Shown one piece after another: positions 88-21,896 of a stretch of 60,673 bases of DNA. The notes beneath the pieces were generated by a model. That model was not told where the DNA came from and did not search any database. It saw nothing but the letters and a program-made list of their open reading frames with translations. Position numbers and translations under genes: made by a program. The DNA is from Prevotella sp. (GTDB lineage: Bacteria > Bacteroidota > Bacteroidia > Bacteroidales > Bacteroidaceae): assembly GCA_017651265.1 (NCBI GenBank), contig JAGCDO010000068.1, forward strand, positions 1 through 60,673, given 5' to 3'. Position 1 is the first letter of the stretch. Each line of letters starts with the position of its first letter.

Positions 88-3000
88 TCACCTTTTCAGT
101 TTCAGCACACATGGCAGGAAAAGGAAGAGGGGGATAATACTCAACAGCAAGCCACCAATGGTGCCTACGGCAAGAGCGTACCAGAAAGGCTGATCGTCAG
201 GACCGTCGATAAGGAAAGGAATCATGCCCAGCACGGTTGATAGTATGGTAAGAAGAATAGGAATGATCTTATGATTAAAGGCCGTTACATACCTTTTGCT
301 TCCCTTCCATCGCCCCTTCTTCCCGTCCGTATCGGCAGTCAGTAATTCCCTTTCACGCTGGTTGTTGTACTGACCGATAATGTATATCCCCGCATTCACG
401 GTCAGACCAGCCAGTAGTACCATGGCTGCAAATCCCCCTGTACCGAAAGGTACACCAGTGACAAAATACGTAAGAAAAAGTCCGATGAACGATACCGGTA
501 TGAGTAAGACAACCGCTAAGGCCTGCATCAGACTCTCATACAAGATAGCGATGATGAAGAAAATAATGACCGCCACCAGTCCGATGAGCCAGTATTGCAT
601 ACCCTCATCCTCATATGCCCCCCACGACCTGTCCATGCAGCGGAATCCCACCGGAAAATAGTTATTGAACTTCTCCGTGGTCGTCTTGATCAGTTTATTC
701 GTGTAGGAAAACGACCCCAGAACATTGAATGCCACTTCAAGGATATACTCCTGATTCTCCCTCGGAATCACATTTTTCGCCTCACGCCTGTTGATGTTCA
801 TAAAGCCAGAAGGGCGCACCACCCTTCCCCCCACGTCGATGTACGAATTCCTCAGCTGCCACTCATCAAACGAATCCATGGTCGAAGGGCGTACCACTAC
901 TGGCATCAGCCTACTGTCCGATACCTCAATCCTGTCGGCTGCCCCCTTTTCTAACAGGTTTCTTAGTACATGATATATACCCTGCGGATGCAGTCCTGAG
1001 AGCGCAAGCGCCCGCTTGTCATATTCCATATACAACTCGTCCTCCTGATTCTCATAACGTGGTATCCTGATCACCAAATCGGCCACCCGCGAGTTACCAC
1101 GCAGTTCGCGGCACATCTCCTCCGCAAAAGCATACAGGCGGTCATAGTCGTACCCTCCAATCACAATACTATTTTCGCGATGCTGCAGCTGCAGCGAATT
1201 ACTGAATCCCCGCTCGCTCACCCCATGCGTAGCCCAGTCGGCCCCGCCAATCGACACCAGCTTACCTATCACCTTACTCTCCAGCATTCCGGGAAACCCT
1301 GTCTTCAAAGCCTCGTCGGTAAAGTCCACATCAATCGTAGCCCCCTGTCCGCCTACCGATGTCTCAAACCGCCTGATTCCTTTACCATACTGCGTAAGGA
1401 AAGCCTCCACCTCCCGAATCTTCCCATTCAGCTCCTGCACACTGCCGCCCACGGGCATCTCCCCGCGTATGTGTAGCATCGTTCTGGGTTTCTTCGGACT
1501 ATACGTATTGGTAGAAAGACACATCATGAAACATTTCAGAGAACCTGCAAACATCAAGGCAAACAGCAAGAGCAAAGCCCACCGTCCGAACCGCTGCTGA
1601 CTCCACCCTACATATCGCCGGTAGATATGCGAGAATGCCACAACCAGTCGCATCCGCCATGTTCTTTTTGTGATCTTCCTCCTGCTCGAAAATCCACATT
1701 GTTCAATCAAGGCAGGAACAAACACCGAAGCCACCACAATGGCAATCACGAGATTCACCATCACCACCACCGAAAAATCTTTCAGATCGTGCCTAATGAA
1801 ATCTGGTAGCCAGAACACTATCACCAACGCCCCGATGGTAGTAAGCATCGCTGCCAGAATTCCCACGAAAGCCCTTCGGTTACAGTAATACCCATAATGA
1901 TCCACCATCACAATGGTAGCATCGATGATGATGCCCAACGACACCGTTATCCCCGCCATTGACATCGGATGCAATCGGATATCCAATAGCCAATAAAGCA
2001 CCACCGCCAGCAGGATATTCGCCAGCAGCGCCGCTGTAATCATCGCCGTATATACCCAGTTCCTTCCCCCCGAAAGCCACACGAACAACAACAGAATCAC
2101 TAGTGTGAGCGACGACCGCAGCAGAAGCGTATAAAAGTCCTTCATCTGCACCTCCGCCCGATCATATACCATCGTCGAATGCGCAGTCATGAAAGCATTC
2201 CCTGCCCCCTTCAGCACCTCTTTCACCCTCTTCGATGTCCTAATCACACTCGCATCCTTATCCGCAAACACATTTACATACACCGAGTTCATACCATTCA
2301 CGCGGTAGTAGCTCTCGGGCTTTTGCTCAAGGATACTACTTGTGGTCAGATTATTCAGGTAGATCATCTTCCCCCCCACCGTCCGCAGCGGCATCTCCTC
2401 AAATCTCTTCCCGTTCCCCTTGGAAGTCAGCACTAGCGGCACCGTCACCCTTCCCTCATCCATGGTCACCTCGCCCACCACGTCCTCCTGTCCAGTGAAA
2501 CTCCTCACCGCCTCAACGATGTCGCTGTTCGTCAAACCGTACACCTCTATCTCTTCCGCATCATACGAGATGTCCATATACAACATCTTGGTTCCCGATA
2601 CCTCCACATGGTGCACCCCCTCCATCTTCTCCACCTCGCGCTTTATTTCCTTCTCCGCCAGCTGTCTCATCTGCTCCTCCGGCATATCCGCATTCAGCTG
2701 ATAGGTAAGAATCAGCTTCACCTCATCATCATCCGCCCGCGCAGCATCCACCTCGCCCCCACTCACCACGGGGAACGACATCTGTTCAGGCAACTTCGGG
2801 CGCAGTTGTCTGAGGATGGAGGCTATTTCGAACTTCGCCATCGACACGTTCGCCTTCGGTTTCATCTCTACGAAGACCATTCCCGATCCGAATAAGCTCA
2901 TCGATGATACCTTCTCCACCCCCTTCACCGCGCTCACCGCCGCCTCAATGCGCGATGTGATATTCTGTTCCACCACCTTGGCCGACGCGTTTTGCCACCC

Positions 3001-3132
3001 ATATGAAATGGTAAGCCGCTTCCCCTGCTCCGGTCGCGGTTCATTACCGATGTCCAGGCTCGGCACCAACGCCGCCCCAATCACCATCAGGATGCACATC
3101 ACCAAAAGAATACTGAAGTTATGCCTCATCAT
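88..3132 (-). CDS. RND efflux permease subunit (second of a pair)
   Basis: Inner-membrane RND transporter of 1014 aa, the usual size of AcrB/MdtC/CusA relatives (about 1000-1050 aa). Hydrophobic segments follow the RND plan: one near residues 7-25, a block at about 335-480, one near 525, and a final block at about 860-1010, with two large periplasmic porter loops between. The TM4 motif reads GIIIDATIVMVDHY, so one acidic residue is kept where AcrB has two. The TM10 motif reads LTVNAGIYII and lacks the AcrB-type lysine. The ATG overlaps the stop of the preceding RND gene as ATGA, so the two are translationally coupled. The family is certain; the substrate is unknown, and peptide export is only inferred from the locus. 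Confidence 0.93.
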   Translation of the reverse strand: MMRHNFSILLVMCILMVIGAALVPSLDIGNEPRPEQGKRLTISYGWQNASAKVVEQNITSRIEAAVSAVKGVEKVSSMSLFGSGMVFVEMKPKANVSMAKFEIASILRQLRPKLPEQMSFPVVSGGEVDAARADDDEVKLILTYQLNADMPEEQMRQLAEKEIKREVEKMEGVHHVEVSGTKMLYMDISYDAEEIEVYGLTNSDIVEAVRSFTGQEDVVGEVTMDEGRVTVPLVLTSKGNGKRFEEMPLRTVGGKMIYLNNLTTSSILEQKPESYYRVNGMNSVYVNVFADKDASVIRTSKRVKEVLKGAGNAFMTAHSTMVYDRAEVQMKDFYTLLLRSSLTLVILLLFVWLSGGRNWVYTAMITAALLANILLAVVLYWLLDIRLHPMSMAGITVSLGIIIDATIVMVDHYGYYCNRRAFVGILAAMLTTIGALVIVFWLPDFIRHDLKDFSVVVMVNLVIAIVVASVFVPALIEQCGFSSRRKITKRTWRMRLVVAFSHIYRRYVGWSQQRFGRWALLLLFALMFAGSLKCFMMCLSTNTYSPKKPRTMLHIRGEMPVGGSVQELNGKIREVEAFLTQYGKGIRRFETSVGGQGATIDVDFTDEALKTGFPGMLESKVIGKLVSIGGADWATHGVSERGFSNSLQLQHRENSIVIGGYDYDRLYAFAEEMCRELRGNSRVADLVIRIPRYENQEDELYMEYDKRALALSGLHPQGIYHVLRNLLEKGAADRIEVSDSRLMPVVVRPSTMDSFDEWQLRNSYIDVGGRVVRPSGFMNINRREAKNVIPRENQEYILEVAFNVLGSFSYTNKLIKTTTEKFNNYFPVGFRCMDRSWGAYEDEGMQYWLIGLVAVIIFFIIAILYESLMQALAVVLLIPVSFIGLFLTYFVTGVPFGTGGFAAMVLLAGLTVNAGIYIIGQYNNQRERELLTADTDGKKGRWKGSKRYVTAFNHKIIPILLTILSTVLGMIPFLIDGPDDQPFWYALAVGTIGGLLLSIIPLFLFLPCVLKLKR

Positions 3133-6100
3133 TTCCTATATAACAGATAATACACCAAAGGAACGAAAAACAAGCTCACCAGCGTACCCACCAGCATTCC
3201 CACAATAAGGGTGAACGAAAGCGGGAACTGCAGGGCCGACCCCATATCACCGCGATGCAGCAGTGGCACAATGGCCAGCATCGTGGTGAGCGATGTCATC
3301 ACAATAGGCTTCAGTCGGCGATGCCCCGCCACCATAATCGCTTTCAGCAAAGAACACCTCTCAGGCCTCTCCACACTCCTATATAGACGATTGATGGTGT
3401 CAACCTTCAATATCGAGTCATTCACGATAATGCCGCACATCACCACCATACCAATCATCGACATGATGTTCACCGATTCCCCCGCCGCCCATACAACAAA
3501 CAGTACCAAGGCCACATCAACCACCACCTCAACTAGAATAATCATGGGCTGTATCATACTCTCAAACTGTGCAGCCAGGATGAAATAGAGCAGCAGAAGC
3601 GCCACCACAAGAACCATCAATAGTTCACTGATCATACTGCGCGACGAGAAATAACCGCCCACAAACGATGCCTGAAAGTCCCCACACCTCTCATCGTCGG
3701 TCAGCCAGGCAAGATACCTCATCACCCCCTTCACCACCTTGTCATCCGCCTTGTCGATATTGATCACCGCGAACTCCCCCTCTTCACTCGCATACAGATG
3801 CTTATAGTCGTCTGTGCGCTGTTCCTTCACCAGATAAGAGATAGGAATATCAACCCCCTCGCTATTACGAATTGTATTTCCCAGCAGCACCGCCGCATCC
3901 CTGCTGTTACTACCAATGACAACCGGCACGCTCTCACCGCCGCTGTTGATATCGTAGATACTGTTATTCCCCAGCAACTCCTTCAGTCGTGCATACAGCT
4001 GCTGGTACGAAACCCTATAATATCCCATCAGCTCCGCATCCGCCGTATATTTCAAATACGTTTCCGTGGCCACCGGCTGAATGCCCAGCTCAGGAAAGTG
4101 AGCCCGCAGCGAATCCGTCACCATGCGGGTCTGCTCAACCCTCGGTCGTCCACCCTCCCGTTTATGTAACCTGATCTGCAGGTCGGGCTCCTCAGTCGAG
4201 AAGATCATATCAAACACATTCGCAGCCAGTTCCGTCTCTATTTTAGCATGCGGATAGTGCTCCCCCATATGTTGGCGAATCGTTTCAACAGCCCTGTCAA
4301 GATCCTCCACCGATTTCCCCTTCAAATAGCACACAGCCTCACTGCTCGTAATGTTCCTGGTATGCGACAAGATGAAATCCTGTCCGCCCACCATGGTTGT
4401 CGATGTCTCCACATACGGCTTTACCGCCCCCAACAGCTCCGTCATCCTTCGGTTATTCTCCTCAGGCGTAATCCCGTTGTTCCAGTCAATGCAAACCAAG
4501 GCATCATCATGCGCAATCTCCGGCATCCGCTCCTTACGTACAAATGGGAACAACATCACGATAACCAACACGCAAACGGCGAAGAACGTCAGCATCATCC
4601 CCGCATGACGGAAGGTAAGCTCCATACCCCACTCATAGAAGCGCATCACCAGTCCATTCGTCCTCTCCACCAACCTGTTCGTCTGCTCTATCGCCCCACT
4701 GTGCTTCCTACATAGAACGAAATAATACACCGGCACCACCCATGCAGCCACCGCCAACGAGCAGAACAGCGCAATCGATACCCCCATGGCCTGATCATAG
4801 AACAGCGCCCCTGCCGTACCGCTGAGAAATATCAACGGAATAAATACCGAGCAAGTAGTGAGCACCGACGAAAGCATCGGCATTATCACCTCCTTCACAG
4901 CATCAACAATAGCCCCATCGGTCATCATCCCCTTCTGTCGGATGTTGTCTATCACGATAATTGAATTATCCACAATCATTCCAACGCCAAGGATTAACCC
5001 CGACAACGATATGATATTCAGCGAGATGCCTATCAAGTAGAAGCAAAGCAAGGTAAGAATCAGCGAAAGCGGAATCGAGACCATCACGAGCAATGGTAGC
5101 CGCCACCCACCAATAAACAGGAACAGCACCACACTGGCCATCACCACGCCCAGCACAAGGTTCCATTCTAGGTTGACGATACTATATGAAAGCAGTTGTG
5201 TCTGATCGCGTGTAACCTTAAACCTCAGTTCCGGATAATCCTTACTCAAGTCCTTCATCAGCGTATCCACCCTATGCTGCAGACCGCTCATTTGGGCGTT
5301 GCTTTGCTTGATCACAGCCATGGTAATAGCATTATTGCCTTCCGATGTCACGATACCCTTTCTCTCAGCGGCCGATTCCTCTACCTTGCAGAAATCCTTC
5401 AACTGCAACAAGCGACCTTCAATCTGCAGATAAATATCCTCAATGTCATGAACTGACAATATCTGAGCATCAAAATGAATACTATAGCGATATATACCAT
5501 CACGCACGCTCAACGCTGCCAATACGATGTTATTATCACTGATCGCCTTTTCTATATCCGAATTCGTCAGCCCGAGAGATTGCATCTTCAGTTCGTTTGG
5601 GATGATGGTAATCTGCGTGCCCACCGTTCCACTATAGTCTACCATGGCAACCTCAGGCAACTGTTCCAGTCGTTTACTAATCACGTTCCCTACCAATCTA
5701 CTTGTCTGTTCTGGCTTGCCGCCTGTAACATCCACATAGAATGCGGGAATATCCATCGCACCAATCTTCATGGCCTTTGGGCGCTCCATCCCCTTAGGCA
5801 TACTACTCATGGCACGGTCAATCTTTTCATTCACTTCGATGAAGAGCAGACTCATATCACTGCCTGGGTCGAAGGTCATGGTAATGATACCAGCATCGGT
5901 ACGTGATGTTGATTCAATTCTCTTCAGTCCTGCGACCTGCGAAAGTTGCTGACGCATTTGACTAACAATCTGTTGTTCTATCTCACGCGCCGAACTTCCT
6001 TGGGCCGACATCTGCACCACAATACGCGGCACATCTATATCAGGCATCAAAGAAACCGGTATTCGTTGGAAAGCAAGAACGCCAAGTGCTACAATGGCAA

Positions 6101-6152
6101 TCAACGACATCGTAACAGCAATCGGGCGATGAAGAAGTGTTTTAAGCATCAT
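3129..6152 (-). CDS. RND efflux permease subunit (first of a pair)
   Basis: RND transporter of 1007 aa. I start at the ATG at 6152 rather than the in-frame TTG two codons upstream, because that TTG belongs to a TTGACA repeat in the spacer. The TM4 motif is GMIVDNSIIVIDN, with Asp-Asn in place of the Asp-Asp of AcrB. The TM10 region reads VVMCGIIVNDSILKVD and has no equivalent of Lys940 at the usual place. The gene is coupled to the next permease by ATGA. Two different adjacent permeases resemble the MdtB/MdtC pair, which works as a hetero-oligomer. With the adaptor and TolC-like genes just upstream it forms a complete tripartite pump. The family is certain and the cargo unknown. Confidence 0.94.
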   Translation of the reverse strand: MMLKTLLHRPIAVTMSLIAIVALGVLAFQRIPVSLMPDIDVPRIVVQMSAQGSSAREIEQQIVSQMRQQLSQVAGLKRIESTSRTDAGIITMTFDPGSDMSLLFIEVNEKIDRAMSSMPKGMERPKAMKIGAMDIPAFYVDVTGGKPEQTSRLVGNVISKRLEQLPEVAMVDYSGTVGTQITIIPNELKMQSLGLTNSDIEKAISDNNIVLAALSVRDGIYRYSIHFDAQILSVHDIEDIYLQIEGRLLQLKDFCKVEESAAERKGIVTSEGNNAITMAVIKQSNAQMSGLQHRVDTLMKDLSKDYPELRFKVTRDQTQLLSYSIVNLEWNLVLGVVMASVVLFLFIGGWRLPLLVMVSIPLSLILTLLCFYLIGISLNIISLSGLILGVGMIVDNSIIVIDNIRQKGMMTDGAIVDAVKEVIMPMLSSVLTTCSVFIPLIFLSGTAGALFYDQAMGVSIALFCSLAVAAWVVPVYYFVLCRKHSGAIEQTNRLVERTNGLVMRFYEWGMELTFRHAGMMLTFFAVCVLVIVMLFPFVRKERMPEIAHDDALVCIDWNNGITPEENNRRMTELLGAVKPYVETSTTMVGGQDFILSHTRNITSSEAVCYLKGKSVEDLDRAVETIRQHMGEHYPHAKIETELAANVFDMIFSTEEPDLQIRLHKREGGRPRVEQTRMVTDSLRAHFPELGIQPVATETYLKYTADAELMGYYRVSYQQLYARLKELLGNNSIYDINSGGESVPVVIGSNSRDAAVLLGNTIRNSEGVDIPISYLVKEQRTDDYKHLYASEEGEFAVINIDKADDKVVKGVMRYLAWLTDDERCGDFQASFVGGYFSSRSMISELLMVLVVALLLLYFILAAQFESMIQPMIILVEVVVDVALVLFVVWAAGESVNIMSMIGMVVMCGIIVNDSILKVDTINRLYRSVERPERCSLLKAIMVAGHRRLKPIVMTSLTTMLAIVPLLHRGDMGSALQFPLSFTLIVGMLVGTLVSLFFVPLVYYLLYRK

Positions 6153-6180
6153 TGTCAACTGTCAACTAATTATCAATTGA
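6151..6180. repeat. TTGACA/CAATTGATAATT repeat at an adaptor-permease junction
   Basis: Minus-strand sequence of the type CAATTGATAATTAGTTGACA followed by a further TTGACA unit. It supplies the adaptor's last codons and TAG stop, fills the short spacer, and runs up to the permease ATG. Related units occur at 44130-44157 and 48350-48385. Confidence 0.6.
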
Positions 6181-7284
6181 TGAAATCGTCACCTCCGTAT
6201 CGTCCGCCAGATTAAGGTTACCTGACGTAATAACGATATCACCCTCATTAACCGTCGTCTGTTTCTTCTCACAACCAGTGATAGCATAACTCGTCAGATT
6301 ACTATATTGAATATCTACGTATGTCCAAACAACACGACTCGTCTTCTTGTCATAGACAAACACCACATGATATCCGTCACGTTCAACCACCGCCTCCTTG
6401 GGCACAACAAGCATATCATGAACAGAGTTCTCGATGACAATCTTTACGTTCATTCCATCAAGAAGTCTGCCAGAAGTATTCTTCACCCTTGCCTTGACTG
6501 AAACAAGTCCTTTCTCATCAATTGTAGGATTGATTTCAGTAACGGTTCCGTTCAGCACCATGTTTTCATCAATATAAGGAGATACTCTTACGGCAGTTCC
6601 TTTATTTACAGAAGCAAGTTCCGACTCAAGGATTTTGAATTCCACATCAAAGAAGGAGTCGTCTATCAATGTACAAAACTTATCTCCACGCTGATGAGGA
6701 CGCGCCACAAGGTCAGCTATCTTTCCGCCAAAAGGAGCTATAAGTCTACAATCCGAGAGCGATGTCTCGGCTGCTCTTATGGCGAATTTTGCAGAATAAT
6801 AACCAGATGTCATTTCTGCTCTTTTCATGACATCAGCAGGCACATTCTTAGCATCGGCCTCATAACCAAGACCAATCAGTTTATCTTGCAGATCTACTTT
6901 TGCTTTCTCCAAATCGTGTTTCGCTCTTTCCAGTGCGGCACTCATATCACGGGTGTCTGCAACGGCAAGCACCATTCCTCTTGATACCCTTTGACCATTC
7001 TTTACGTTCACGCTTCTAAGGATTTCGCCCGCTTTCGGACACATCAACTCAGCTCGTCGAATGGCAACCAACTTACCATTACACAGTATCTGCATCTGGA
7101 ACACCTGCTTACGAAGCACCACGGTATCTACCTCCACAATAGTTTGTTCCATTGCAGCTATGGGTAACTCTTTCTCTTCTTTTTCCTTTTTATGTGTCAA
7201 CGAGAATACCACAAACACAACGACACCAGTAAGAAGTAAGCCTGCGATAGAAGAAATCGCGATCTTTATATATCTCTTTCTCAT
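6166..7284 (-). CDS. RND periplasmic adaptor (membrane fusion protein)
   Basis: A 372-aa adaptor that would bridge the RND permease and the TolC-like channel. An N-terminal membrane anchor spans about residues 8-30; there is no lipobox, so it is anchored by a helix. Barrel-sandwich (lipoyl-like) halves lie near residues 75-110 (CPKAGEILRSVNVKNGQRV) and 180-205 (APFGGKIADLVARPHQRGDK). A short helical hairpin at about 115-175 is rich in Ala, Lys and Glu. A beta-barrel and membrane-proximal domain follow. The last codons and stop lie in a repeat. The gene sits 6 bp after the TolC-like stop, in the same operon. Confidence 0.93.
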   Translation of the reverse strand: MRKRYIKIAISSIAGLLLTGVVVFVVFSLTHKKEKEEKELPIAAMEQTIVEVDTVVLRKQVFQMQILCNGKLVAIRRAELMCPKAGEILRSVNVKNGQRVSRGMVLAVADTRDMSAALERAKHDLEKAKVDLQDKLIGLGYEADAKNVPADVMKRAEMTSGYYSAKFAIRAAETSLSDCRLIAPFGGKIADLVARPHQRGDKFCTLIDDSFFDVEFKILESELASVNKGTAVRVSPYIDENMVLNGTVTEINPTIDEKGLVSVKARVKNTSGRLLDGMNVKIVIENSVHDMLVVPKEAVVERDGYHVVFVYDKKTSRVVWTYVDIQYSNLTSYAITGCEKKQTTVNEGDIVITSGNLNLADDTEVTISSIDN

Positions 7285-12084: not shown

Positions 12085-12613
12085 TTATTATATCATCAAA
12101 AAGCTTTTCTATTTTGGGGCTTCTCCTCGGATCCCCAACAAGTTTTATTCGACTATCCTTCTTGTCTATCAACATGGTATGATAAATAGAAGAATGGGGA
12201 ATGAAAGGATTCGCTTTTTCAAATGTGTTCAAAGTATCTAAATAAATATTTTTCTTTTCCTTTTTCCTCATAAGAAATGTACGCATATACTGATGAGAAT
12301 CTGCTTTCGGGTGAAAAATAAAGACATAATCCATTTGTTGTGGTTTGCCATATTTCTCCATAAAATTATTCCACGTATACAGTTTTGAAGTAGCGCATGT
12401 TTGACACTCAGTAGAGTCAAAGTAACAGAGCATTACAAAACGAGAATCAATATTCGCACCAGATTTGTCACAATCTATCAGTTCCATTTGTTCCAAGTTC
12501 AGTTCAACCTTACTATCAAGCATTTCTTTTACACAAGATAACGTATCATCCTTCTTACAAGAAATGAATAAAAAGACTGTTGAAAGAACAATAAATACTA
12601 CTCGATTATTCAT
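12071..12613 (-). CDS. Thioredoxin-like lipoprotein (CQTC)
   Basis: A 180-aa predicted lipoprotein with lipobox FISC (Cys19) followed by KKDD. The thioredoxin-like core has FVMLCYFDSTECQTCATSK with CxxC at Cys70-Cys73, then a helix and a strand containing VFIFHPKADS. The later segment THE-like region HSSIYHTMLIDKKDSRIKL resembles the cis-Pro/beta4 region of TlpA-type redoxins. Its ATG overlaps the upstream propeller stop as ATGA and its 3' end overlaps the MauE gene. A periplasm-facing thiol oxidoreductase is likely; the partner is inferred to be the MauE-like protein, with NVEALA peptides as substrates. Confidence 0.8.
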   Translation of the reverse strand: MNNRVVFIVLSTVFLFISCKKDDTLSCVKEMLDSKVELNLEQMELIDCDKSGANIDSRFVMLCYFDSTECQTCATSKLYTWNNFMEKYGKPQQMDYVFIFHPKADSHQYMRTFLMRKKEKKNIYLDTLNTFEKANPFIPHSSIYHTMLIDKKDSRIKLVGDPRRSPKIEKLFDDIINERP

Positions 12614-13779: not shown

Positions 13780-13825
13780 ATATTCTAATGTGTATTTATG
13801 TAAGTGTTATTCTATTAAAATTCCA

Positions 13826-14215
13826 TTAATAATTTACCACATGACAATCGTACGGGGTACACCCGAATCCTTTGTCTGGACAATCATCATAGATTGCTTT
13901 TAGTATCTTTTTATTATAGATGCCACTAGCCTCTAACTGTATATTTGGCTGAGAAGAAGAATAAGCGACTCTCCCAGACACATCAGTATAAACATAAAGA
14001 ACACAAAACTTTGTTATACCTTTCCTGTCAGGATAACGATAACCACCTCTATTTGCATCACCATCACCACCATCTGAACTCTGTGCCAATGCCTCAACAT
14101 TCTGCATCAGCAAACTGTTGTCTTGAACACCATAAGAACTGTAGCTCTGGTAGGCAGTAAAACCTGCAGCTACTAACACCGCAGCAGCAATGCCGCATTT
14201 AATTGATTTTTTCAT
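13826..14215 (-). CDS. NVEALA-family exported peptide (copy D)
   Basis: A 129-aa precursor. The leader has a Lys-rich start, a hydrophobic stretch (about residues 8-20), then SLLMQNVEALA with the family motif at residues 39-44. The motif ends in Ala-Leu-Ala, a plausible signal peptidase I site, which would release an 85-aa peptide beginning QSSDGGDGD. The mature part has four cysteines at 71, 112, 119 and 124. Copy B has cysteines at exactly the same positions and is a full-length paralogue. The leader DNA is nearly identical to copies B and C. The biological activity of NVEALA peptides is unknown. Confidence 0.88.
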   Translation of the reverse strand: MKKSIKCGIAAAVLVAAGFTAYQSYSSYGVQDNSLLMQNVEALAQSSDGGDGDANRGGYRYPDRKGITKFCVLYVYTDVSGRVAYSSSQPNIQLEASGIYNKKILKAIYDDCPDKGFGCTPYDCHVVNY

Positions 14216-14254
14216 TGTTTTATATAAATAATTTACAAAACTTGTAAAGGGACT

Positions 14255-15598
14255 CTACTTCAGTGTACATACCTGAATTATTGGATTATTGTTTTTCGAT
14301 AAGCGCACCATTTCTGCTTTCTCCTCAAAAGAAATGATAGAGGGAGTTTTACGATCAGCATTGAGTTTTATTAGATTTTGATACAAAGCCCGTGCAGAAT
14401 AAAACTTCTTATCTATTTGCGATAAAGTATTGTGACAAGTTTTTAATTTCTCCTCAGTCATATCTGTATTCGTTGGAATGCTTGCCATACGTTCGAACTG
14501 GTCGGGTTCTATCATGAAGTAAACTTTATTATTTGAAACTGATTTTAATTCCATACCATTTACTTGACCATATATATCATTATCCATTAGACGTACATAT
14601 CTTAAATCATCCAAAGAATCTTTATTTGCAACCATAAGATGTAACATTTGTGCATCCCATGAAAAGTTCATTAATAAATATTTACCCGTACTATAAAAAT
14701 TTACGCTTCTCGCCACATTATCCGGATAATTGGAGTAGGCTTTTTCCTGATATGATTCAAATGACTCAAACCACTCTTCTGGTTGGTTGTTTTTTCCAAA
14801 ATCCACAAAGTAAAGAGTCTTCAATGAATCATTAACAAATTCATTAATTAAAGGCGTTCCCGGGACATGTACATACACATGGTCTTCAGAACGTGTGAAC
14901 ACATTTGAACTCATGGTAAAACCTTTCCAATTATCGCTATAAGGAGCATGATAGCCGACAATCTTCCCTTTCCGGTCAACAATCACATAATTGTAAGAAC
15001 CGTCTATTCCAGGAACATCCATTTGATAGTTCATATAAAGAATGAGATGATCCCTATCCAATATTTCAAATTCATAATAGAAAGAAGGTATTTCCACGAC
15101 ATTCAAGAATTTTCCGTCGATGCTATAAAACTGGAGCGAGCTCTTTCCTGCATCATAAACTATCACCTGATTACGATAAACGTCATAGACCATGCAGGTA
15201 GGAGAAATGTATTCTCCCTTTGAATGCCCTAAACCACCTATAGTATTTACAAATTTCCCATCGTTGTTAAAACGGAGTATTGATTTTCCAGAAGCATCAA
15301 AAACAAGGAGATCGCCATCTTTTGTAATTTGCAATTTCCTAATTTCACCAACCTTTGACTTTGGAGTGAACTCTAATGGGATATACTTGACATCCGAAAA
15401 GAAATCAGAATAAAAGGCAACACTTCCTACTTGCAAATCACTCAAATCTATTGTTGGCACATTCCCTTTCTCATAGTTATCCGCTAAGCCAATGCCAATC
15501 AACTCTTTATCATATTGAAAAGATGTAAAAGTATTCTTATGAAGACAAGAAGAAAGACACATCAACAACAATAAACTTATTAATAACCTTTTCATCAT
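14255..15598 (-). CDS. Six-bladed beta-propeller lipoprotein (2 of 3)
   Basis: A 447-aa lipoprotein with signal MMKRLLISLLLLMCLSSC and lipobox LSSC (Cys18). Propeller repeats include GDLLVFDASGKSILRFNNDG, QVIVYDAGKSSLQFYSIDG and YNYVIVDRKGKIVGYHA. The first blade contains VKYIPLEFTPKSKVGEIRKL, a segment typical of this Bacteroidales family. A C-terminal extension of roughly 60 residues is charged and helical. It lies 48 bp after NVEALA copy C and 39 bp before copy D, so it is bracketed by peptide genes. The function is unknown; surface display or peptide binding are guesses from context. Confidence 0.82.
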   Translation of the reverse strand: MMKRLLISLLLLMCLSSCLHKNTFTSFQYDKELIGIGLADNYEKGNVPTIDLSDLQVGSVAFYSDFFSDVKYIPLEFTPKSKVGEIRKLQITKDGDLLVFDASGKSILRFNNDGKFVNTIGGLGHSKGEYISPTCMVYDVYRNQVIVYDAGKSSLQFYSIDGKFLNVVEIPSFYYEFEILDRDHLILYMNYQMDVPGIDGSYNYVIVDRKGKIVGYHAPYSDNWKGFTMSSNVFTRSEDHVYVHVPGTPLINEFVNDSLKTLYFVDFGKNNQPEEWFESFESYQEKAYSNYPDNVARSVNFYSTGKYLLMNFSWDAQMLHLMVANKDSLDDLRYVRLMDNDIYGQVNGMELKSVSNNKVYFMIEPDQFERMASIPTNTDMTEEKLKTCHNTLSQIDKKFYSARALYQNLIKLNADRKTPSIISFEEKAEMVRLSKNNNPIIQVCTLK

Positions 15599-15646
15599 TT
15601 TATATATTCTTTTAAAGGAGTACAGACAAGCTGTACTCCATAATAA

Positions 15647-15988
15647 TCAACAGGGATTAGGGATTTCGTCACAATGGGCATATTGTCCTTCACCGTCTTT
15701 TACCCTAATACAATCATTGCATTTGTAAGTTTTAGACTCACTGTACCATTGAGTATAATGTATTGTCACAGTTTTTACCGTTGGCCTGGCAACGTAATCC
15801 TTACGATTCCACCAGCCCCAAAGCCCGCTATCTGCATCACCGCCATCAGAAGTCTGTGCCAATGCCTCAACATTCTGCATCAGCAAACTATTGTCTTGAA
15901 CGCCATAAGAACTGTAGCTCTGGTAGGCAGTAAAACCTGCAGCTGCTAACACCGCGGCAGCAATGCCGCATTTAATTGTTTTTTTCAT
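15647..15988 (-). CDS. NVEALA-family exported peptide (copy C)
   Basis: A 113-aa precursor. Its leader is almost the same as copies B and D (one residue change in the hydrophobic stretch) and it carries NVEALA at 39-44. After the shared acidic SDGGD stretch the cargo is unrelated in sequence: an aromatic segment (GLWGWW), a Thr/Val-rich strand and a Cys-rich end with cysteines at 90, 93, 106 and 113. The cysteine number (four) is kept although spacing and sequence are not. This looks like a constant leader joined to a variable payload. Confidence 0.87.
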   Translation of the reverse strand: MKKTIKCGIAAAVLAAAGFTAYQSYSSYGVQDNSLLMQNVEALAQTSDGGDADSGLWGWWNRKDYVARPTVKTVTIHYTQWYSESKTYKCNDCIRVKDGEGQYAHCDEIPNPC

Positions 15989-16070
15989 ATCTTTTATTAT
16001 TAAGTGTATAAGAGTTCTTTTCTTTCATGAATAGATCTCTTATACACATGATTACACTTCTATTATTTCT

Positions 16071-16460
16071 TTAATAAGGAACCTCCTGACATGAGAAAGG
16101 ACTACATCCATTTCCATCATCTGGACATTTATCTTCTAGACCTCGTCTCGTTGTTTTTTCATATTTTCCACTTAATTCTAACTGTTTATTTTCCTCAGTG
16201 CTAGAATAAGCGACCTTCCCGTTTGAATCTATATAAACATGAAGAGTACAAAATCTTGCTCTCCCTCTCCTATCAGGATAACGATAACCACCTCCATTTG
16301 CATCACCATCACCACCATCTGAACTCTGTGCCAATGCCTCAACATTTTGCATCAGCAAACTGTTGTCTTGAACACCATAAGAACTGTAGCTCTGGTAGGC
16401 AGTAAAACCTGCAGCTACTAACACCGCGGCAGCAATGCCGCATTTAATTGTTTTTTTCAT
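16071..16460 (-). CDS. NVEALA-family exported peptide (copy B)
   Basis: A 129-aa precursor, the close paralogue of copy D over its whole length. NVEALA is at 39-44 and cysteines are at 71, 112, 119 and 124. Differences from copy D are concentrated in the cargo, for example in the stretch before Cys112 and in the C-terminal tail. The leader coding DNA differs from copy D at only about three positions in some 136 bases by eye. It is the first of two consecutive NVEALA genes, 82 bp upstream of copy C. Confidence 0.88.
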   Translation of the reverse strand: MKKTIKCGIAAAVLVAAGFTAYQSYSSYGVQDNSLLMQNVEALAQSSDGGDGDANGGGYRYPDRRGRARFCTLHVYIDSNGKVAYSSTEENKQLELSGKYEKTTRRGLEDKCPDDGNGCSPFSCQEVPY

Positions 16461-16597: not shown

Positions 16598-16631
16598 TAT
16601 ATCATGCGCTAATATATTCTACTCTTTCTGT

Positions 16632-19433
16632 TCACCACCATATCTGCTTGCCGTTTTCATAGGTAAACAGGCGTTCCTCCTTACCTTTTGTCAGGTCATG
16701 AAGAATATATAGACCGCCTGCCGGCACATGATCAATAATCAAGTAGTCCTCTGTAGCAACTTTACGCTCCACTTCATTCCATTGACAGTTGTCCCAATAG
16801 CATAGGGCATAGAGATCGCCCCTTTCAATTGTATTCCCGTCGTTACGGGCAATGAAACGAATGTTGCCTACAATAGAGGGTTTACTAAGTTGCAAGCCTA
16901 CCCACTGACCATCTGCCCCGAGCGCATGGAATCCAGTAAGGATATCGCCGTCGAAAACGGTCTCCTTGGTCTTCTTCGGCTCGCCTTTTGTTCCAATGAT
17001 TCTGCCCATGAGTTTGTTACCATCCTTGTCGAAGAACGCCAGCTCATTGATATTGCCATGCGATCCTTCAGGACCTAAATAACGGAGATACCGGTATGCT
17101 TGGGCATCGTTAATAGGTATGTCGTACCAGTTGCCGTTGGTTACACCTTCGAAACGGTAGAGATTGGTTACCTTACTGAACTGTGCGTCGTTGGAGCCTT
17201 GGAAGAGTCCTCCGCCCATCTTGTAATTGATATCGCTGAACTTACCGAGGAACGGAAATTTACGATTGAGCACCATGGTAACTGACTTGTCTTTTGAGAC
17301 GCTGATATCGGTCACGGAGCCATCACCTGCAACCAGGAACGGATCCCCGAAGGGTTGCATGCCGCGTTCATCGCAAATGGCGGCCATATAGACTATGTCG
17401 GGACCCATGCAACGGAACGTGACCTTTCCGTTCTTGATTCTGCCGTAATATACGGGTACCCAGTTGGCATTGTCGAAAACACAGATATAGGCTACCTTCT
17501 TATCTGAATAGGCTTCGGGTACGGGGCGTTCCACATCTACAGGATTGTCGTAATACTCATCGGTGACATCGATGATGTTGAGCGACCGGAACAGGGAGGG
17601 AACGTATTTTTCATGGGCAAAGGCTTCGGCCATGTCTCTGTTCAGACTAAACCGACGACGGAATACTTTTGCTTTGCTATATGAATAGGAATAGTGCGCG
17701 GTGTCCCCTGGAACGCTACCCATGAAAAACGGTGTTGACTTACCATCTGGATTGATAATGACATTCCAGGTGTGACCCTGACTGCGGTTGCCCCAATTAG
17801 GGGTAAAGTCTATGGCTGAAGGTATTCCTAAGCTGCGGCACAGATAGACGGCGAAGCTGCCTTCCTCGCGACAGTTTCCAGAGAGGCCTCTCAACAGGGT
17901 TGTTCCTCTTGGCATGAGTCCGCTTTTGTTGTCATACCATTCAAACATGGTGTTGACGTCATATACCTTCATGGCTTCGGATATCGGACCGCCGAACGCA
18001 TAGATGGTCTTGGCATCTCGGCGCTTGCCTTGTTCCTCTATGAGCCAGTGCTGAGAATCAGAGTGCCTGTAGTCATCTACGGTAAGGACTTCCTTCTGAC
18101 CTCGTCTGACGGAGGTAAGGAACAATCCGCAGTCCTTGTTCATGATTTTGCAATAACCGTTACCCAAAGGGATGATAACCCATTTCTGATGGTTTATCTT
18201 TACTTTCTGGTAAGTCGTTATATAATCATTTTGGACAACTTCGCTACCTGCCGAAAGGGCGGCGTTGCCTACTTCCACACATAGATCGGTAGTGTCGTTG
18301 TGTGCTGAATATATCTTCCAAATGGGAAAGCCCAAGTAGTCGAGTCGCAGCAGCTGGGTGGTGTCGTTGGCCGCCTGCGCTTTGAGTTGCAGCTGACTTT
18401 CCTTGGCATTGCCCCCTAAATCGAAGGTAAGGTATCGGCCTGATTGCTTGTTCTGGATAGTGCAATATCTTTGCGAATAGTCTTTCAATGAGGGGGTATC
18501 GATAGTTTCCAACGTTGATACGCGCACGTAATCCATACTGAAGGGTTCATCCACACATACTACTGTTAGCTGGTTGTCGCCATGGCTCAGGGTAACATCA
18601 AGACCTACGCGATTCTCACGGAATACGGTGTAGTAGTTGGTGGGCTCAAGGGCGAGGGTGCTGACCAGCTGACCGTTGAGGTAGATTGCGGCCTTGGCAT
18701 GTAACAACTGCACCGAATACTTGAAGAACAGACGTTTGGTGGCGGTGCCGTGCGAAGGAAGGGTGAGCGTAAGACTGTCGTTTGGGGTTGACAGCAATAC
18801 TATTTTCTTTCCTGAGGCAGCTTCGTTGTCTTTGAGGTTCTTAGGGTTATAAACACCTTTCTCACACTCAATGTCGATGCCACGATTACTCGATACCGTT
18901 GAGGTGTAGAGGAAAGGATAGTTCTCTTTAACGTATGAGCGCCATGCGCTCACAGGTTCGTTCATGAGCCGGTATGGCAGCACGTAATCGAAAAAGATGG
19001 ACTCGTCGTATTCTCCCTTCCAGTTCACCTGATGCCACACATCGCAGGCTTCGTTGATCATCTCGATGAGATAATCGGCCTTGAGACTCTTCAGGTCAAT
19101 AGCAGCTGTAGCAGATGACGAGGGGTTGGAATAGGCTATCTGCTTGAAAACGCTGTCGCGCTGCTCGATGGGATAGCACGAGGAGACGCGGAAGGCGGAA
19201 TCGGCATACTCGGCAGCATCGCCCATGTTGGAATAGTTATAGGGCATGTTCTCAATGAGGAACTTGGCCGAACGGTATTTCAGCCCATCGGGATCGTCTT
19301 TGAAGTGTGAAAGGACTTTCTCCAGCTCAGCCCGGTTACTACCGGCCAACTGAAGGGCAGAGTCAAGGTTCTTGTTGCAGGCCGCACATAACAGCACGAT
19401 GACAATGGTGAAATATTTGCTAACTGTTCTCAT
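16632..19433 (-). CDS. Transglutaminase-fold lipoprotein with lectin and discoidin-like domains
   Basis: A 933-aa predicted lipoprotein (LCAAC lipobox, Cys19). A helical N-terminal part covers about 20-180. A beta-trefoil (ricin-like) lectin region at about 315-470 shows two Q-x-W motifs (NHQKWVI, DSQHWLI). The transglutaminase-like core has GLSGNCREEGSF (Cys521), SQGHTWN (His554) and NPDG (Asp562), the expected Cys-His-Asp triad. The C-terminus (about 770-900) resembles an F5/8-type C carbohydrate-binding fold. The gene is visibly richer in G+C than its neighbours on both sides, which suggests a separate origin. In Bacteroidales such enzymes are uncharacterised; protease or crosslinking activity on exported peptides is possible but not shown. 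Confidence 0.85.
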   Translation of the reverse strand: MRTVSKYFTIVIVLLCAACNKNLDSALQLAGSNRAELEKVLSHFKDDPDGLKYRSAKFLIENMPYNYSNMGDAAEYADSAFRVSSCYPIEQRDSVFKQIAYSNPSSSATAAIDLKSLKADYLIEMINEACDVWHQVNWKGEYDESIFFDYVLPYRLMNEPVSAWRSYVKENYPFLYTSTVSSNRGIDIECEKGVYNPKNLKDNEAASGKKIVLLSTPNDSLTLTLPSHGTATKRLFFKYSVQLLHAKAAIYLNGQLVSTLALEPTNYYTVFRENRVGLDVTLSHGDNQLTVVCVDEPFSMDYVRVSTLETIDTPSLKDYSQRYCTIQNKQSGRYLTFDLGGNAKESQLQLKAQAANDTTQLLRLDYLGFPIWKIYSAHNDTTDLCVEVGNAALSAGSEVVQNDYITTYQKVKINHQKWVIIPLGNGYCKIMNKDCGLFLTSVRRGQKEVLTVDDYRHSDSQHWLIEEQGKRRDAKTIYAFGGPISEAMKVYDVNTMFEWYDNKSGLMPRGTTLLRGLSGNCREEGSFAVYLCRSLGIPSAIDFTPNWGNRSQGHTWNVIINPDGKSTPFFMGSVPGDTAHYSYSYSKAKVFRRRFSLNRDMAEAFAHEKYVPSLFRSLNIIDVTDEYYDNPVDVERPVPEAYSDKKVAYICVFDNANWVPVYYGRIKNGKVTFRCMGPDIVYMAAICDERGMQPFGDPFLVAGDGSVTDISVSKDKSVTMVLNRKFPFLGKFSDINYKMGGGLFQGSNDAQFSKVTNLYRFEGVTNGNWYDIPINDAQAYRYLRYLGPEGSHGNINELAFFDKDGNKLMGRIIGTKGEPKKTKETVFDGDILTGFHALGADGQWVGLQLSKPSIVGNIRFIARNDGNTIERGDLYALCYWDNCQWNEVERKVATEDYLIIDHVPAGGLYILHDLTKGKEERLFTYENGKQIWW

Positions 19434-19480
19434 TTTCTTTTAATTAATTCGATAATACTCAAAGTAGATTCGCCAATTTC

Positions 19481-20065
19481 TCAAAGCCCGTGAGTGTATT
19501 CCATTTTTAATGACGCGATGGCCTTTTTGTACAGTTGAGAGAGCTTCTCATTGCCAAACGGTTCGCCGACAACAACTATTCGGTTCTTCTTATCCAGGAG
19601 AAAGGTTTTGTTGCGGGCAAGAACATCAAGTTTATTCACTTCACCAAAAACAGAATCTTCGTAATACAACAGAGGATAGAGTAACCGCATCGAATCTATA
19701 TTATTGAATAGCACATCTTTTTGAGGGGTTTGGACAACTATCACGTATGCTACCTCAGGGTCTATCTGCTTCACTTGCTCTATCCACGTATGCAACATTC
19801 TAACGCCACATGAGGTGCATGGGAGATCGTTTATATATGATACTATCTTGATGTCTGTTGCCAACAAAGAATCAATTGGCATAGAATTTTGGTAAGACAA
19901 AGAACAATAGCCTTTAGGGAATAAAATCTCACGCCCTGACAATGCTCGTACTTCTTTAACCAGACGATCGTTATTGTTACAAGAACAAAAAATGAGAATC
20001 AACAACAATATCCAAAGCATCATCACGCTTTTAGAAAACGAAAGACAAAAGTTGTACTTAGTCAT
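19481..20065 (-). CDS. Thioredoxin-like lipoprotein (CTSC)
   Basis: A 194-aa predicted lipoprotein with lipobox FCSC (Cys29) followed by NNNDR. The start could also be the internal ATG at 20023 (MMLWILLL), which gives a more usual signal length. The redoxin motif is IVSYINDLPCTSCGVRML with CxxC at Cys83-Cys86. Later, NKTFLLDKKNRIVVVGEPF resembles the TlpA beta4-beta5 segment. It follows the propeller gene by 24 bp, giving the order NVEALA, propeller, redoxin that is repeated at 12-14 kb. A periplasmic thiol role is inferred. Confidence 0.8.
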   Translation of the reverse strand: MTKYNFCLSFSKSVMMLWILLLILIFCSCNNNDRLVKEVRALSGREILFPKGYCSLSYQNSMPIDSLLATDIKIVSYINDLPCTSCGVRMLHTWIEQVKQIDPEVAYVIVVQTPQKDVLFNNIDSMRLLYPLLYYEDSVFGEVNKLDVLARNKTFLLDKKNRIVVVGEPFGNEKLSQLYKKAIASLKMEYTHGL

Positions 20066-20089: not shown

Positions 20090-21199
20090 TTATAATAGTT
20101 GAGATAAATCATACTTCAAGACTGTACCATCTTGCCTAATACCAAATAGCATTTTGTAACGTTCACTAAATGCAATATTGTCAACTTTGTCTTTAATGCA
20201 AAAACTCTTAAGATAATCACCTTCATGATTAAAAATCAAAACGAGCCTATTGGCATTGACTTCTTCTGTCACTATCTCAACCATTTTTCTCCTATCTTGC
20301 AAAACCATGATATAGTTCTCACTTACACTCAAACTCCTTGTGCATATATTAATATGTTCATTTAACCATTGGATATCGTTTTGGTGTTTTTCAGCATCCT
20401 CTAAACTGAATGTCTGTTTTTCTATAACACCTATGGTCGCTGACTTCTCTACATCCAAAATGTTGATCATATTCATATAAAGAAGCCCTTCCACTATTTT
20501 GTCTTTTTGAGGACTTATCCTCATCTCAGAATTATATAATAAGGATACTATATCATAATTAGGACAACTGATTGTTGATGGGTAAAATGACACCTCTCGT
20601 GTTTCATTCTTTTCTTTTAATATGAATTTTGGGGGAAAATAGACATGGTCTCTTGGATCATCACTAGTTATGAACTGACTTGTAACGCTATTATCATCGC
20701 TAATCCAATAATAACGTTCTGTCATCAATCCATGCTTCAACAGTCGAGATACAATACTATTATTCTCTCTGATTGATTTACTGAGATTAACAACTTTAGC
20801 TGTCAGTTGCAGATCTGGAACAATCATCATTAAATCTCCGTTTTCCCTGCCAAAATAACAAGTGGTTGGAGCCCAGGAAAACTCATTCTTTGCATTACCT
20901 ATCTGACCGAATCTTGCTAAAATAGAATCTTCCTTTATTCCATATACTGAGAAAATACGATCAGACTTGGAATTCTCTATAACAACTAGATAATCATCCA
21001 TTACCTCAATTCCCATCGGCTCAATAAATAGGTGAGTCACGAGGGGAGTTCCTGAAATAGTATCATCAATATGCCCAACTTCATACTCTTTTAGCACATC
21101 AGGATTGTATCTACTTTTCGTGTTACATGACACAAAGAATTGCACACACAAGACTAGAATAAGGACATAATATGTTCTTTTATAATAAAGCAATTGCAT
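20090..21199 (-). CDS. Six-bladed beta-propeller lipoprotein (3 of 3)
   Basis: A 369-aa lipoprotein starting at the ATG at 21199; an in-frame TTG at 21229 is less likely. The signal ends in a lipobox, FVSC (Cys24 from this start). Propeller-like strands include VMDDYLVVIENSKSDRIFSV, GDLMMIVPDLQLTAKVVNL and NYIMVLQDRRKMVEIV. It is more diverged than the other two propellers but has the same family layout. It lies 171 bp after NVEALA copy A and 24 bp before the redoxin gene. The role is unknown. Confidence 0.75.
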   Translation of the reverse strand: MQLLYYKRTYYVLILVLCVQFFVSCNTKSRYNPDVLKEYEVGHIDDTISGTPLVTHLFIEPMGIEVMDDYLVVIENSKSDRIFSVYGIKEDSILARFGQIGNAKNEFSWAPTTCYFGRENGDLMMIVPDLQLTAKVVNLSKSIRENNSIVSRLLKHGLMTERYYWISDDNSVTSQFITSDDPRDHVYFPPKFILKEKNETREVSFYPSTISCPNYDIVSLLYNSEMRISPQKDKIVEGLLYMNMINILDVEKSATIGVIEKQTFSLEDAEKHQNDIQWLNEHINICTRSLSVSENYIMVLQDRRKMVEIVTEEVNANRLVLIFNHEGDYLKSFCIKDKVDNIAFSERYKMLFGIRQDGTVLKYDLSQLL

Positions 21200-21370
21200 A
21201 TATAGACTAAAGATTATTATTCTTAGCAATGCTAATTATACCACTTTGCTAAGAATTACCATTCAATTAAAGTTTCACAGTTCAAATGGGATATAACTTC
21301 ATTTTCTCACTTCATGCTGTACATCGATAAAGTTTCTCAGCCATTATAAATACCATAAAAAAGCAAACAT

Positions 21371-21748
21371 TCAATACCTCATGCAATACCCATTGTTTGG
21401 AGTCATTGAAAACAGACTTATGTCTGGTATTCCTCGTGTCGAACAAGGGTACATTTTGGGTTGAAGCGGCACGCTATTAGAATAAAAAAGAGTTGTACCC
21501 TCTGCACATATATACATTACAGTTCCTTTTTTACCACCACCCGGGCTTTTACAATTTTCAAGTATAGCCGGTTTCCCTTCACCATTGTCACCCGATTCAC
21601 CTTCAGAATCTGCACTCAGCGCCTCCAAATTCTCCATCAGTAAAGAATTGTCAACATTTCCATACGCGCCATACGCTCTCCAAACACCGAGGCAAGATGT
21701 TGCCACAACGACCACTGCTAAAGTGGATTTGATAATAGCATTTTTCAT
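21371..21748 (-). CDS. NVEALA-family exported peptide (copy A, diverged)
   Basis: A 125-aa precursor at the 5' end of the locus. The leader keeps the family plan (DNSLLMENLEALS in place of MQNVEALA, motif at 40-45) but is otherwise diverged. The payload begins ADSEGESGDNGEGK and carries cysteines at 66, 81, 102 and 122, again four. A Gly/Lys-rich stretch follows the first cysteine. A Cys in the hydrophobic stretch (VVATSC) might be mistaken for a lipobox, but a poor fit at -3 and the conserved distal motif argue against it. Confidence 0.8.
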   Translation of the reverse strand: MKNAIIKSTLAVVVVATSCLGVWRAYGAYGNVDNSLLMENLEALSADSEGESGDNGEGKPAILENCKSPGGGKKGTVMYICAEGTTLFYSNSVPLQPKMYPCSTRGIPDISLFSMTPNNGYCMRY

Positions 21749-21888
21749 TCTAAATTGTTTAAATAGTTTATAATTAATACCTGTATGACTAGGTTTTCAT
21801 GATTGCAAATGAGATGTAGGATAGTGTCCAAGTCTTGTATATAAACAGAGAAAAGGGCACTGCAACCTGTTTCATGATAAGACTGCTG

Positions 21889-21896
21889 CAAAAGTA
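21889..21896 (-). promoter_or_regulatory. Putative -7 element for the NVEALA locus
   Basis: TACTTTTG on the minus strand matches the Bacteroidetes TAnnTTTG consensus and lies about 140 bp upstream of NVEALA copy A. No good TTTG -33 box is seen 19-20 bp upstream. The implied leader is long (about 130 nt), with room for an RNA regulatory element. Confidence 0.5.

Follow-up and report, generated by a model that had tools for sequence, protein, structure and literature searches.

We have examined a locus on the minus strand of a 60,673-nucleotide stretch of Prevotella sp. DNA (GenBank assembly GCA_017651265.1, contig JAGCDO010000068.1; the whole stretch is called the window here), in which 17 genes encode, among others, four precursors of the NVEALA family (PF14055), three β-propeller lipoproteins, two CxxC lipoproteins, a signal peptidase I (SPase), a WaaL-like membrane protein and a pump of the resistance-nodulation-division (RND) type. 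We show that the core of a precursor and the propeller encoded beside it form a cognate pair, as judged by covariation, and that modules of core and propeller, with or without a CxxC lipoprotein, are exchanged while the machinery stays constant, homologous DNA ending at the leader/core junction. This exchangeable unit behind a constant leader is new here, and was absent from an earlier sequence-only reading of the locus. We lean towards a chromosomal system for the production and secretion of polymorphic cysteine-rich peptides, the likeliest purpose of which would be antagonism of competing Bacteroidales, with the propeller acting as cognate immunity protein.

A constant leader and a hypervariable core

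Loci were gathered with the WaaL-like protein as bait, and those read comprise 20 genome stretches and 80 loci from named records; the latter are the best 80 of 569 confirmed relatives, and counts drawn from them therefore lean to the clade of the window. Since PF14055 alone was too weak, we built a leader profile of our own, and 185 distinct precursors were collected. They combine a conserved leader of about 45 residues, ending in N(V/I)EAL(A/S), with a hypervariable core that mostly has four or two cysteines. The window encodes precursor 4 (21371..21748, minus strand like all genes of the locus; 125 residues; leader MKNAII...NLEALS), precursor 3 (16071..16460; 129 residues, of which the leader at 16329..16460 makes up 44), precursor 2 (15647..15988; 113 residues; leader as in precursor 3, core different) and precursor 1 (13826..14215; 129 residues), each with four cysteines in its core. 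What PF14055 matches is the leader (profile positions 1–46 of 62): two of the four precursors score over its cut-off of 27 bits (28.0 and 28.1), one just below it (26.0) and one more weakly (20.9). The family's description reads 'NVEALA protein' only, and no function for it was found in the open-licence PMC literature.

A leader end of the N[V/I]EAL[A/S/T] type is present in 164 of the 185 precursors, with N at −6 in 147 of these, E at −4 in 156, A at −3 in 148, L at −2 in 151 and A, S, T or G at −1 in 157; it obeys the −3/−1 small-residue rule of signal peptidase I, and a double-glycine end is absent from all 164 leaders. The predicted cleavage site lies a median 25 residues past the most hydrophobic stretch; in ordinary signal peptides it is much nearer to the hydrophobic segment. 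Cores are mostly 25–90 residues long (154 precursors). An even number of cysteines occurs in 144 of the 184 cores of at least 18 residues (four without cysteine included), whereas a binomial null gives 92.4 (SD 6.9; maximum 118 in 2000 draws), and exactly four occur in 85, against a null mean of 29.0. Taken with the fold of the CxxC lipoproteins and their linkage, these even counts suggest that the cores carry disulfides.

A two-cysteine core subtype (CxGxGSxxCP...KV-like) recurs in L167 (7856–8170), L171 (6967–7203), L170 (889–1140), L078 (16718–16942) and L175 (6744–6953). In L078, L167, L170 and L171 it has a CxxC protein (about 290 residues where complete) alongside and no propeller, although in L175 the next gene does encode a propeller. 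Cognate pairs of a second kind may thus exist.

Core and propeller form a cognate pair

The gene directly after a precursor encodes a protein of 300–470 residues in 151 of 185 cases, comprising, by our first profile, 99 propellers, 51 unlabelled proteins and one signal peptidase. A second propeller profile matches 137 of 147, a partly circular count since a third of these proteins had gone into building that profile. In the window the propellers are A (20090..21229; 379 residues), which directly follows precursor 4 and whose TolB_like match falls below the cut-off (25.4 versus 29.2), B (14255..15598; 447 residues) and C (12610..13779; 389 residues), the latter two matching DUF5128. Across loci, the similarity of two cores is correlated with that of their propellers (r = 0.40 for the 11,063 pairs from different loci whose cores are less than 0.8 similar; r = 0.52 when the core pairs at or above 0.8 are included), and the corresponding values for core and leader and for leader and propeller are 0.06 and 0.08. 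When partners were reshuffled within the 39 multi-unit loci the mean fell at 0.113 (SD 0.036, maximum 0.258), none of 1000 reshufflings reaching 0.40; within loci, the correlation of core and propeller is 0.55–0.63. Moreover, in 43 cassettes of precursor, propeller and CxxC lipoprotein, the last covaries with the core (0.45) and the propeller (0.65), and less with the leader (0.33).

A lipobox was found in 124 of the 151 proteins adjoining a precursor. The acidic signature of surface export, as given in passages of PMC5080379, was not seen among the 151, so that display of the propellers by the known export signal was rejected, and a periplasmic location, beside the mature peptide, is likely.

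Modules are exchanged at the leader

The closest relative among the best 80 of the 569 is L085, from Prevotella sp. Tb.RUG.501. Its machinery is highly similar to that of the window, with identities of 96% for TolC, 94% for the adaptor and for the transglutaminase-like lipoprotein (TG), 90% for the WaaL-like protein and SPase, 88% for RND1, 85% for RND2 and 80% for MauE, and its two leaders are 86–95% identical to those of precursors 1–3 (41–43% to that of precursor 4). The variable parts stand at 9–27% (cores), 21–25% (best propeller match) and 22–28% (CxxC lipoproteins). Long DNA homology extends over 101–11970 and 16290–19441; the block at 11971..16289 (minus strand), which has none save short leader matches, contains the remainder of the core of precursor 3 together with precursors 2 and 1, propellers B and C, CxxC lipoprotein B and the 5′ end of mauE. 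Homology ends 39 nt past the leader/core junction of precursor 3 (0 nt in the second match), and within the window the first 135 nt of precursors 1, 2 and 3 share 130–132 positions (precursor 3 with 1 and 2: 132 and 131). L085 as fetched ends about 1.1 kb beyond TG, and this in-place comparison omits precursor 4, propeller A and CxxC lipoprotein A.

There are 65 unit pairs in which at least 250 nt upstream and the leader align, at a DNA identity of at most 98.5%; in 62 of them the homology stops no more than 60 nt from the leader/core junction (68 of 72 when counted per direction), and inclusion of the pairs above 98.5% gives 62 of 83, most of the 18 extra pairs that run through the junction involving loci fetched twice from the same genome. 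Precursor pairs with leaders at least 80% identical (n = 224) have a mean core identity of 0.20, against 0.15 when shuffled. Recombination between repeated leader sequences is the most likely mechanism by which such modules would be exchanged.

The gene set recurs across Bacteroidales

The titles of the named records include Prevotella, Xylanibacter, Phocaeicola, Paraprevotella, Parabacteroides, Odoribacter, Rikenella, Alistipes, Paludibacter, Muribaculaceae and others, and gene-order strings show the same set repeatedly. Thirty-one named loci extend more than 6 kb before and more than 9 kb after the bait; among these, SPase is present in 31, NVEALA precursors in 28, propellers and CxxC lipoproteins in 27 each, TolC, adaptor and RND in 25 each, TG in 21 and MauE in 12; NVEALA, SPase and the pump occur together in 22. 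The linkage of NVEALA and pump genes that the sequence-only reading had proposed for this one locus is borne out by this survey of gene neighbourhoods. The counts for all 80 named loci, many of them cut by contig ends, are SPase 66, TolC 56, NVEALA 55, adaptor 53, propellers 52, CxxC 50, RND 50, TG 40 and MauE 26, and, of 581 labelled neighbours, 556 share the strand of the bait. Precursors may form long arrays, with 11 on one contig of G227 and more than 10 upstream of the machinery in G256.

Genome sets of the family (151) and the order (149) were sampled evenly from larger groups. At E ≤ 1e-6, 6 of the 149 genomes of the order and 1 of 198 genomes of the phylum, the window's own, contain the leader, which on these counts looks confined to Bacteroidales. 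Its distribution is patchy, a WaaL-like match being present in 4 of the 10 genus members listed. Among 29 strong WaaL-like matches in the family genomes, 15 have an NVEALA leader (E ≤ 1e-6) within 20 kb. The other 14 (L071, L077, L082 and others, some at contig edges) are relatives of the WaaL-like protein with its tetratricopeptide repeats (TPRs) that have no detectable NVEALA gene nearby; the WaaL-like family may serve other loci too, or the leaders there may be too diverged for detection. Two loci, L144 and L146, come from records assigned to Tepidanaerobacteraceae and Lachnospiraceae but carry genes of the Bacteroidales type, and are probably contigs binned into the wrong genome.

A dedicated RND pump

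All parts of a tripartite pump are encoded: two ACR_tran permeases, RND1 (3129..6158; 1009 residues; TTG start as listed) and the very diverged RND2 (88..3132; 1014 residues), an HlyD-type periplasmic adaptor (6166..7284; 372 residues) and a TolC-family outer-membrane channel (OEP; 7291..8757; 488 residues). In a tree with 23 other RNDs from four genomes, the locus RND1 (n = 24) and RND2 (n = 15) proteins form two separate clades on long stems (support 0.996 and 1.0). We then took E ≤ 1e-130 as a stand-in for membership of the RND1 clade, a cut-off that yields exactly one match, the locus RND1, in each of the four tree genomes, and searched the 151 family genomes with at most five candidates scored in each; 35 matches were obtained in 34 genomes. 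An RND1-like pump is present in 24 of 25 genomes with a strong NVEALA match (E ≤ 1e-6) as opposed to 10 of 126 others (Fisher p = 6.6e-19), a test that is not fully independent because the loci behind the leader profile had themselves been gathered with the WaaL-like bait. NVEALA lies within 20 kb of 16 of the 35 matches.

The usual proton-relay residues of RND pumps are, in AcrB numbering, D407, D408 and K940. The locus RNDs depart from this pattern: Asp is found at the D407 column, the first Asp of the TM4 motif, in 39 of 39, is never found at the D408 column, and the K940 column in TM10 is Asn throughout, whereas the 23 comparison RNDs carry Lys, Arg or Gln there.

Putative folding, cleavage and ligase-like proteins

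CxxC lipoproteins A (19481..20065; 194 residues) and B (12071..12613; 180 residues) belong to the same family, and neither matches a Pfam or NCBIfam family at E ≤ 0.01. A model of one of them (mean pLDDT 88.8) is thioredoxin-like, its best fold matches including a putative protein disulfide isomerase of B. thetaiotaomicron, ResA, DsbE and CcmG (TM-score by query about 0.4–0.5). C83 and C86 are invariant in 34 of 34 CxxC lipoproteins, and CxxC is present in 76 of 79 of a wider set; both attributes of a thioredoxin-like oxidoreductase, fold and CxxC, are combined here. Also among the matches of the model is human NHLRC2 (6gc1), in which a thioredoxin-like domain is joined to an NHL propeller, two folds that are neighbours and covary in the locus. 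According to passages of PMC6671954, Bacteroides lack general disulfide machinery, and oxidoreductases encoded in bacteroidetocin loci likely do that job.

CxxC lipoprotein B is followed by the MauE-like membrane protein (11413..12084; 223 residues) and the locus SPase (10593..11411; 272 residues). Signal peptidases I (S26) are defined by Ser and Lys catalytic contexts, and the locus SPase, over the cut-off for Peptidase_S26, matches these with SMYPTL and CKRVVGLPGD. In a tree it stands apart from both housekeeping types, with support of 0.676 for all 32 members, which include L209 with its genomic context unchecked, and 0.902 for the 31 without L147; the clade is therefore separate, though not firmly monophyletic. 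G152, of the same genus and without a WaaL-like match, has only the housekeeping kinds. The TG protein (16632..19433; 933 residues), part of the constant machinery, has a ricin-B lectin domain (RicinB) and a Transglut_core match just under the cut-off (22.4 versus 23).

The WaaL-like membrane protein (8806..10596; 596 residues) shares with WaaL O-antigen ligase its fold (model pLDDT 90.9; best match 7tpg, E 5e-6), the Wzy_C domain, matched in 19 of 19 members scanned, and conserved arginines. It differs in having C-terminal TPRs added, and in that the ligase histidine has given way in all 44 members to another residue, Phe in 31, Tyr in 10 and Cys in 3. In WaaL this histidine is thought to be catalytic. 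Two arginines are kept in 44 of 44, one aligning confidently with an arginine of 7tpg and the other only in a weakly aligned stretch, and a family-specific His158 occurs in 43 of 44. Possible roles for the protein are those of an altered transferase or of a scaffold.

Proposed function and alternatives

Within our preferred reading of antagonism and immunity, a precursor would enter the Sec pathway and be anchored in the inner membrane by the hydrophobic segment of its leader. The thioredoxin-like lipoprotein, supplied by MauE, would form the disulfides of the core, and the locus SPase would cut after N(V/I)EAL(A/S/T), a conserved site, but one that, at about 25 residues past the hydrophobic segment, is too far for an ordinary signal peptide. 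The mature core may then be recognized in the periplasm by its own adjoining propeller lipoprotein, as their covariation suggests, and be carried out of the periplasm by the adaptor, the two RND permeases and TolC, for which the dedicated pump clades and the linkage argue. Since RND pumps take their substrates from the periplasm, such a pump would suit a peptide moved by Sec and folded there. The machinery remains constant, and modules of core and propeller (with or without CxxC lipoprotein) are swapped behind the constant leader. The pathway outlined by the sequence-only reading, in which cysteine-rich peptides are made, folded, trimmed and exported with an RND pump in the place of an ABC exporter, is consistent with the recurring dedicated set; the glycosylation that it thought possible is not supported.

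Several observations weigh against this reading. MauE and TG are labelled in only 26 and 40 of the 80 named loci, 40 of 184 cores have odd cysteine counts and four have none, and 43 of the 62 homology stops at the junction come from three genomes. The usual cargo of RND pumps is small molecules, and the usual TM10 Lys/Arg is Asn in 24 of 24 RND1 and 15 of 15 RND2 proteins. Co-occurrence of pump and leader, tested with the partial dependence noted above, is also incomplete: a strong NVEALA match is lacking in 10 of the 34 genomes that carry an RND1-like pump, and 19 of the 35 matches have no NVEALA within 20 kb, among them contig-edge cases (e.g. G199, G234) and real separations, such as G296, in which the two are about 1 Mb apart. 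The propeller partners, at 300–470 residues, exceed the largest microcin immunity protein given in passages of PMC9746304 (216 residues), and no functional test of the system was found in passages of the open-licence PMC literature.

Among the alternatives for the propeller, a role as peptide-specific periplasmic chaperone or cargo receptor, which hands the folded core to the shared pump and confers no immunity, ranks second after antagonism and immunity. The cognate covariation, the lipoprotein signals devoid of a surface-export signature and the position of 137 of 184 propellers (those away from locus ends) directly downstream of an NVEALA gene would all fit it. However, no NVEALA gene lies directly upstream of the remaining 47, of which 25 come after another propeller, an arrangement better expected of immunity or receptor genes than of chaperones; we consider the chaperone role unlikely. 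Peptide signalling, ranked third, would make peptides and propellers self/non-self specific signal–receptor pairs. Polymorphic signal–receptor systems typically show just such paired and exchanged peptides and partners, and propellers lacking a precursor could listen to others, but none of the 17 proteins belongs to a kinase, sigma factor, anti-sigma factor or transcription factor family in Pfam or NCBIfam, and the known signature of surface export is absent from the propellers, so that signalling seems to us improbable.

It is also conceivable that the peptides are glycosylated, or ligated to a surface glycan, by the WaaL-like/TPR protein and displayed instead of released. The WaaL-like fold, the two invariant arginines, the proximity of SPase to the WaaL-like gene (no more than 200 bp apart in 55 of the 66 named loci that contain both) and the possibility that His158 replaces the missing ligase histidine speak for this; against it are the replacement of that histidine in every member, the lack of any Pfam glycosyltransferase family among the 17 proteins, and the cores themselves. 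General O-glycosylation in Bacteroidetes uses the motif D(S/T)(A/I/L/V/M/T), and this was not enriched, occurring in 10 of 185 cores where shuffled cores gave a mean of 18.8. Glycosylation by that general route was accordingly rejected, and we regard modification and display as quite improbable. The proposal to which we give the least credence is that the pump is an ordinary multidrug efflux operon that adjoins the peptide locus by chance. RND, adaptor and TolC genes are indeed common (6–12 RND match rows in each of four genomes, some of them gene pieces), and the 19 RND1-like matches without nearby NVEALA would be expected of such an operon. Yet RND1 and RND2 form clades of their own, the pump accompanies NVEALA in 24 of 25 genomes against 10 of 126, and in G222 the adaptor gene is separated from the RND genes by NVEALA and propeller genes (L070 and L081, two adjoining stretches). 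The clade and co-occurrence tests led us to reject this candidate; it is largely contradicted by the recurring linkage, the absence of which the sequence-only reading had named among the findings that would refute its own proposal, and its probability is very small.

Comparison with known systems

Our best reading, by analogy, is that the system works like the class II microcins of Enterobacterales, with the propeller most likely a cognate immunity protein. As described in passages of PMC9746304, class II microcins have a conserved signal sequence, a highly variable core, a variable cognate immunity protein and a conserved exporter with adaptor and TolC. The NVEALA locus shares with them the conserved signal sequence, the highly variable core and the conserved exporter with adaptor and TolC, and has beside the peptide gene a variable cognate partner, recognized by covariation, which would be the immunity protein. 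It differs in having neither a double-glycine leader nor a C39 peptidase ABC transporter: no Pfam domain of an ABC transporter or C39 peptidase was found at E ≤ 0.01 in the 17 proteins, and the NCBIfam matches to such families were below cut-off and confined to TPR and adaptor parts. What it has instead is a Sec-type leader with a dedicated SPase I, together with a thioredoxin-like lipoprotein, a pair of RND permeases and, as the partner, a large propeller.

The bacteroidetocins, as presented in passages of PMC6671954, are likewise Bacteroidales peptides with four cysteines, encoded with a thiol oxidoreductase and a transmembrane protein, and the NVEALA locus, judging from fold and CxxC, also has a thiol-oxidoreductase-like gene beside a cysteine-containing peptide. 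They have a double-glycine leader of 15–16 residues and a peptidase-containing ABC transporter, neither of which is present in the NVEALA locus, and their four-gene region, with no obvious immunity protein, has no propeller, signal peptidase, RND or WaaL-like gene (same passages). A further parallel for the putative export step is STII, a small Sec-exported peptide with two disulfides that is expelled from the periplasm by the tripartite MacAB-TolC (passages of PMC5985334). STII uses the ABC-type MacB, unlike the RND permeases here. We know of no exchangeable partner protein for STII.

Layout and surroundings of the locus

The 17 open reading frames listed in the sequence-only reading were all confirmed, spanning positions 21748 to 88 of the minus strand, as was their tight single-strand layout, with gaps between neighbours of −14 to 171 nt and overlaps at four junctions. 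The order of transcription is precursor 4, propeller A, CxxC A, TG, precursor 3, precursor 2, propeller B, precursor 1, propeller C, CxxC B, MauE, SPase, the WaaL-like/TPR protein, TolC, adaptor, RND1 and RND2. Among the 17 proteins the Pfam matches are two ACR_tran, HlyD, OEP, Wzy_C with TPR, Peptidase_S26, MauE and two DUF5128. A possible −7 box, TACTTTTG, starts at 21896, some 148 nt ahead of the first NVEALA gene, and has no exact −33 TTTG with it; four other −7 boxes lie on the minus strand of the first 23.5 kb, in which no exact −33/−7 Bacteroides promoter was found on that strand. The window is an entire contig of a 3.16-Mb genome, and since it stops 87 nt past RND2, further genes downstream are possible.

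Adjoining the locus on the same strand, at 22318–28381, are GH97, GH8 and GH43 genes (the last with CBM6 and CBM35), which look like part of a plant-glycan utilization locus; the GH97 frame as listed, with a GTG start, overlaps the GH8 gene. A tRNA-Arg (acg) gene lies at 32948–33022 on the minus strand.

Significance

NVEALA is named in no open-licence PMC paper (subscription journals and preprints were outside the search), and neither DUF5128, PF14055 or PF17170 nor a description of the system was found among the matches listed. A transcriptome table of B. thetaiotaomicron, in passages of PMC10434189, has separate rows for BT0662 (O-antigen ligase family), BT0664 (6-bladed beta-propeller), BT0667 (signal peptidase I) and BT0669 (RND adaptor), and no other open-licence PMC paper was found for the locus tags searched from BT0662 to BT0669. 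By annotation, therefore, this model species seems to carry the system at BT0662–BT0669, and the claims of pairing and export are directly testable.

Finally, we put forward, tentatively and with less confidence than our preferred reading, that the locus represents a new class of secreted-peptide weapon or recognition system, in which the constant leader would serve as a recombination joint, cassettes of core and propeller would be shuffled between loci and species, and the dedicated SPase, thioredoxin-like lipoprotein and two-RND/TolC pump would process and expel any core plugged in. If this is true, a function would be gained for PF14055, a Pfam family unmentioned in the open-licence PMC literature, and for propeller families with no described role among the matches listed there, and an RND pump would be added to the exporters of ribosomal peptides. 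Gut bacteria would further offer an extensive natural collection of disulfide-rich peptides, along with their matched partners, from what looks like an undescribed weapon or signal system of gut and rumen Bacteroidales.

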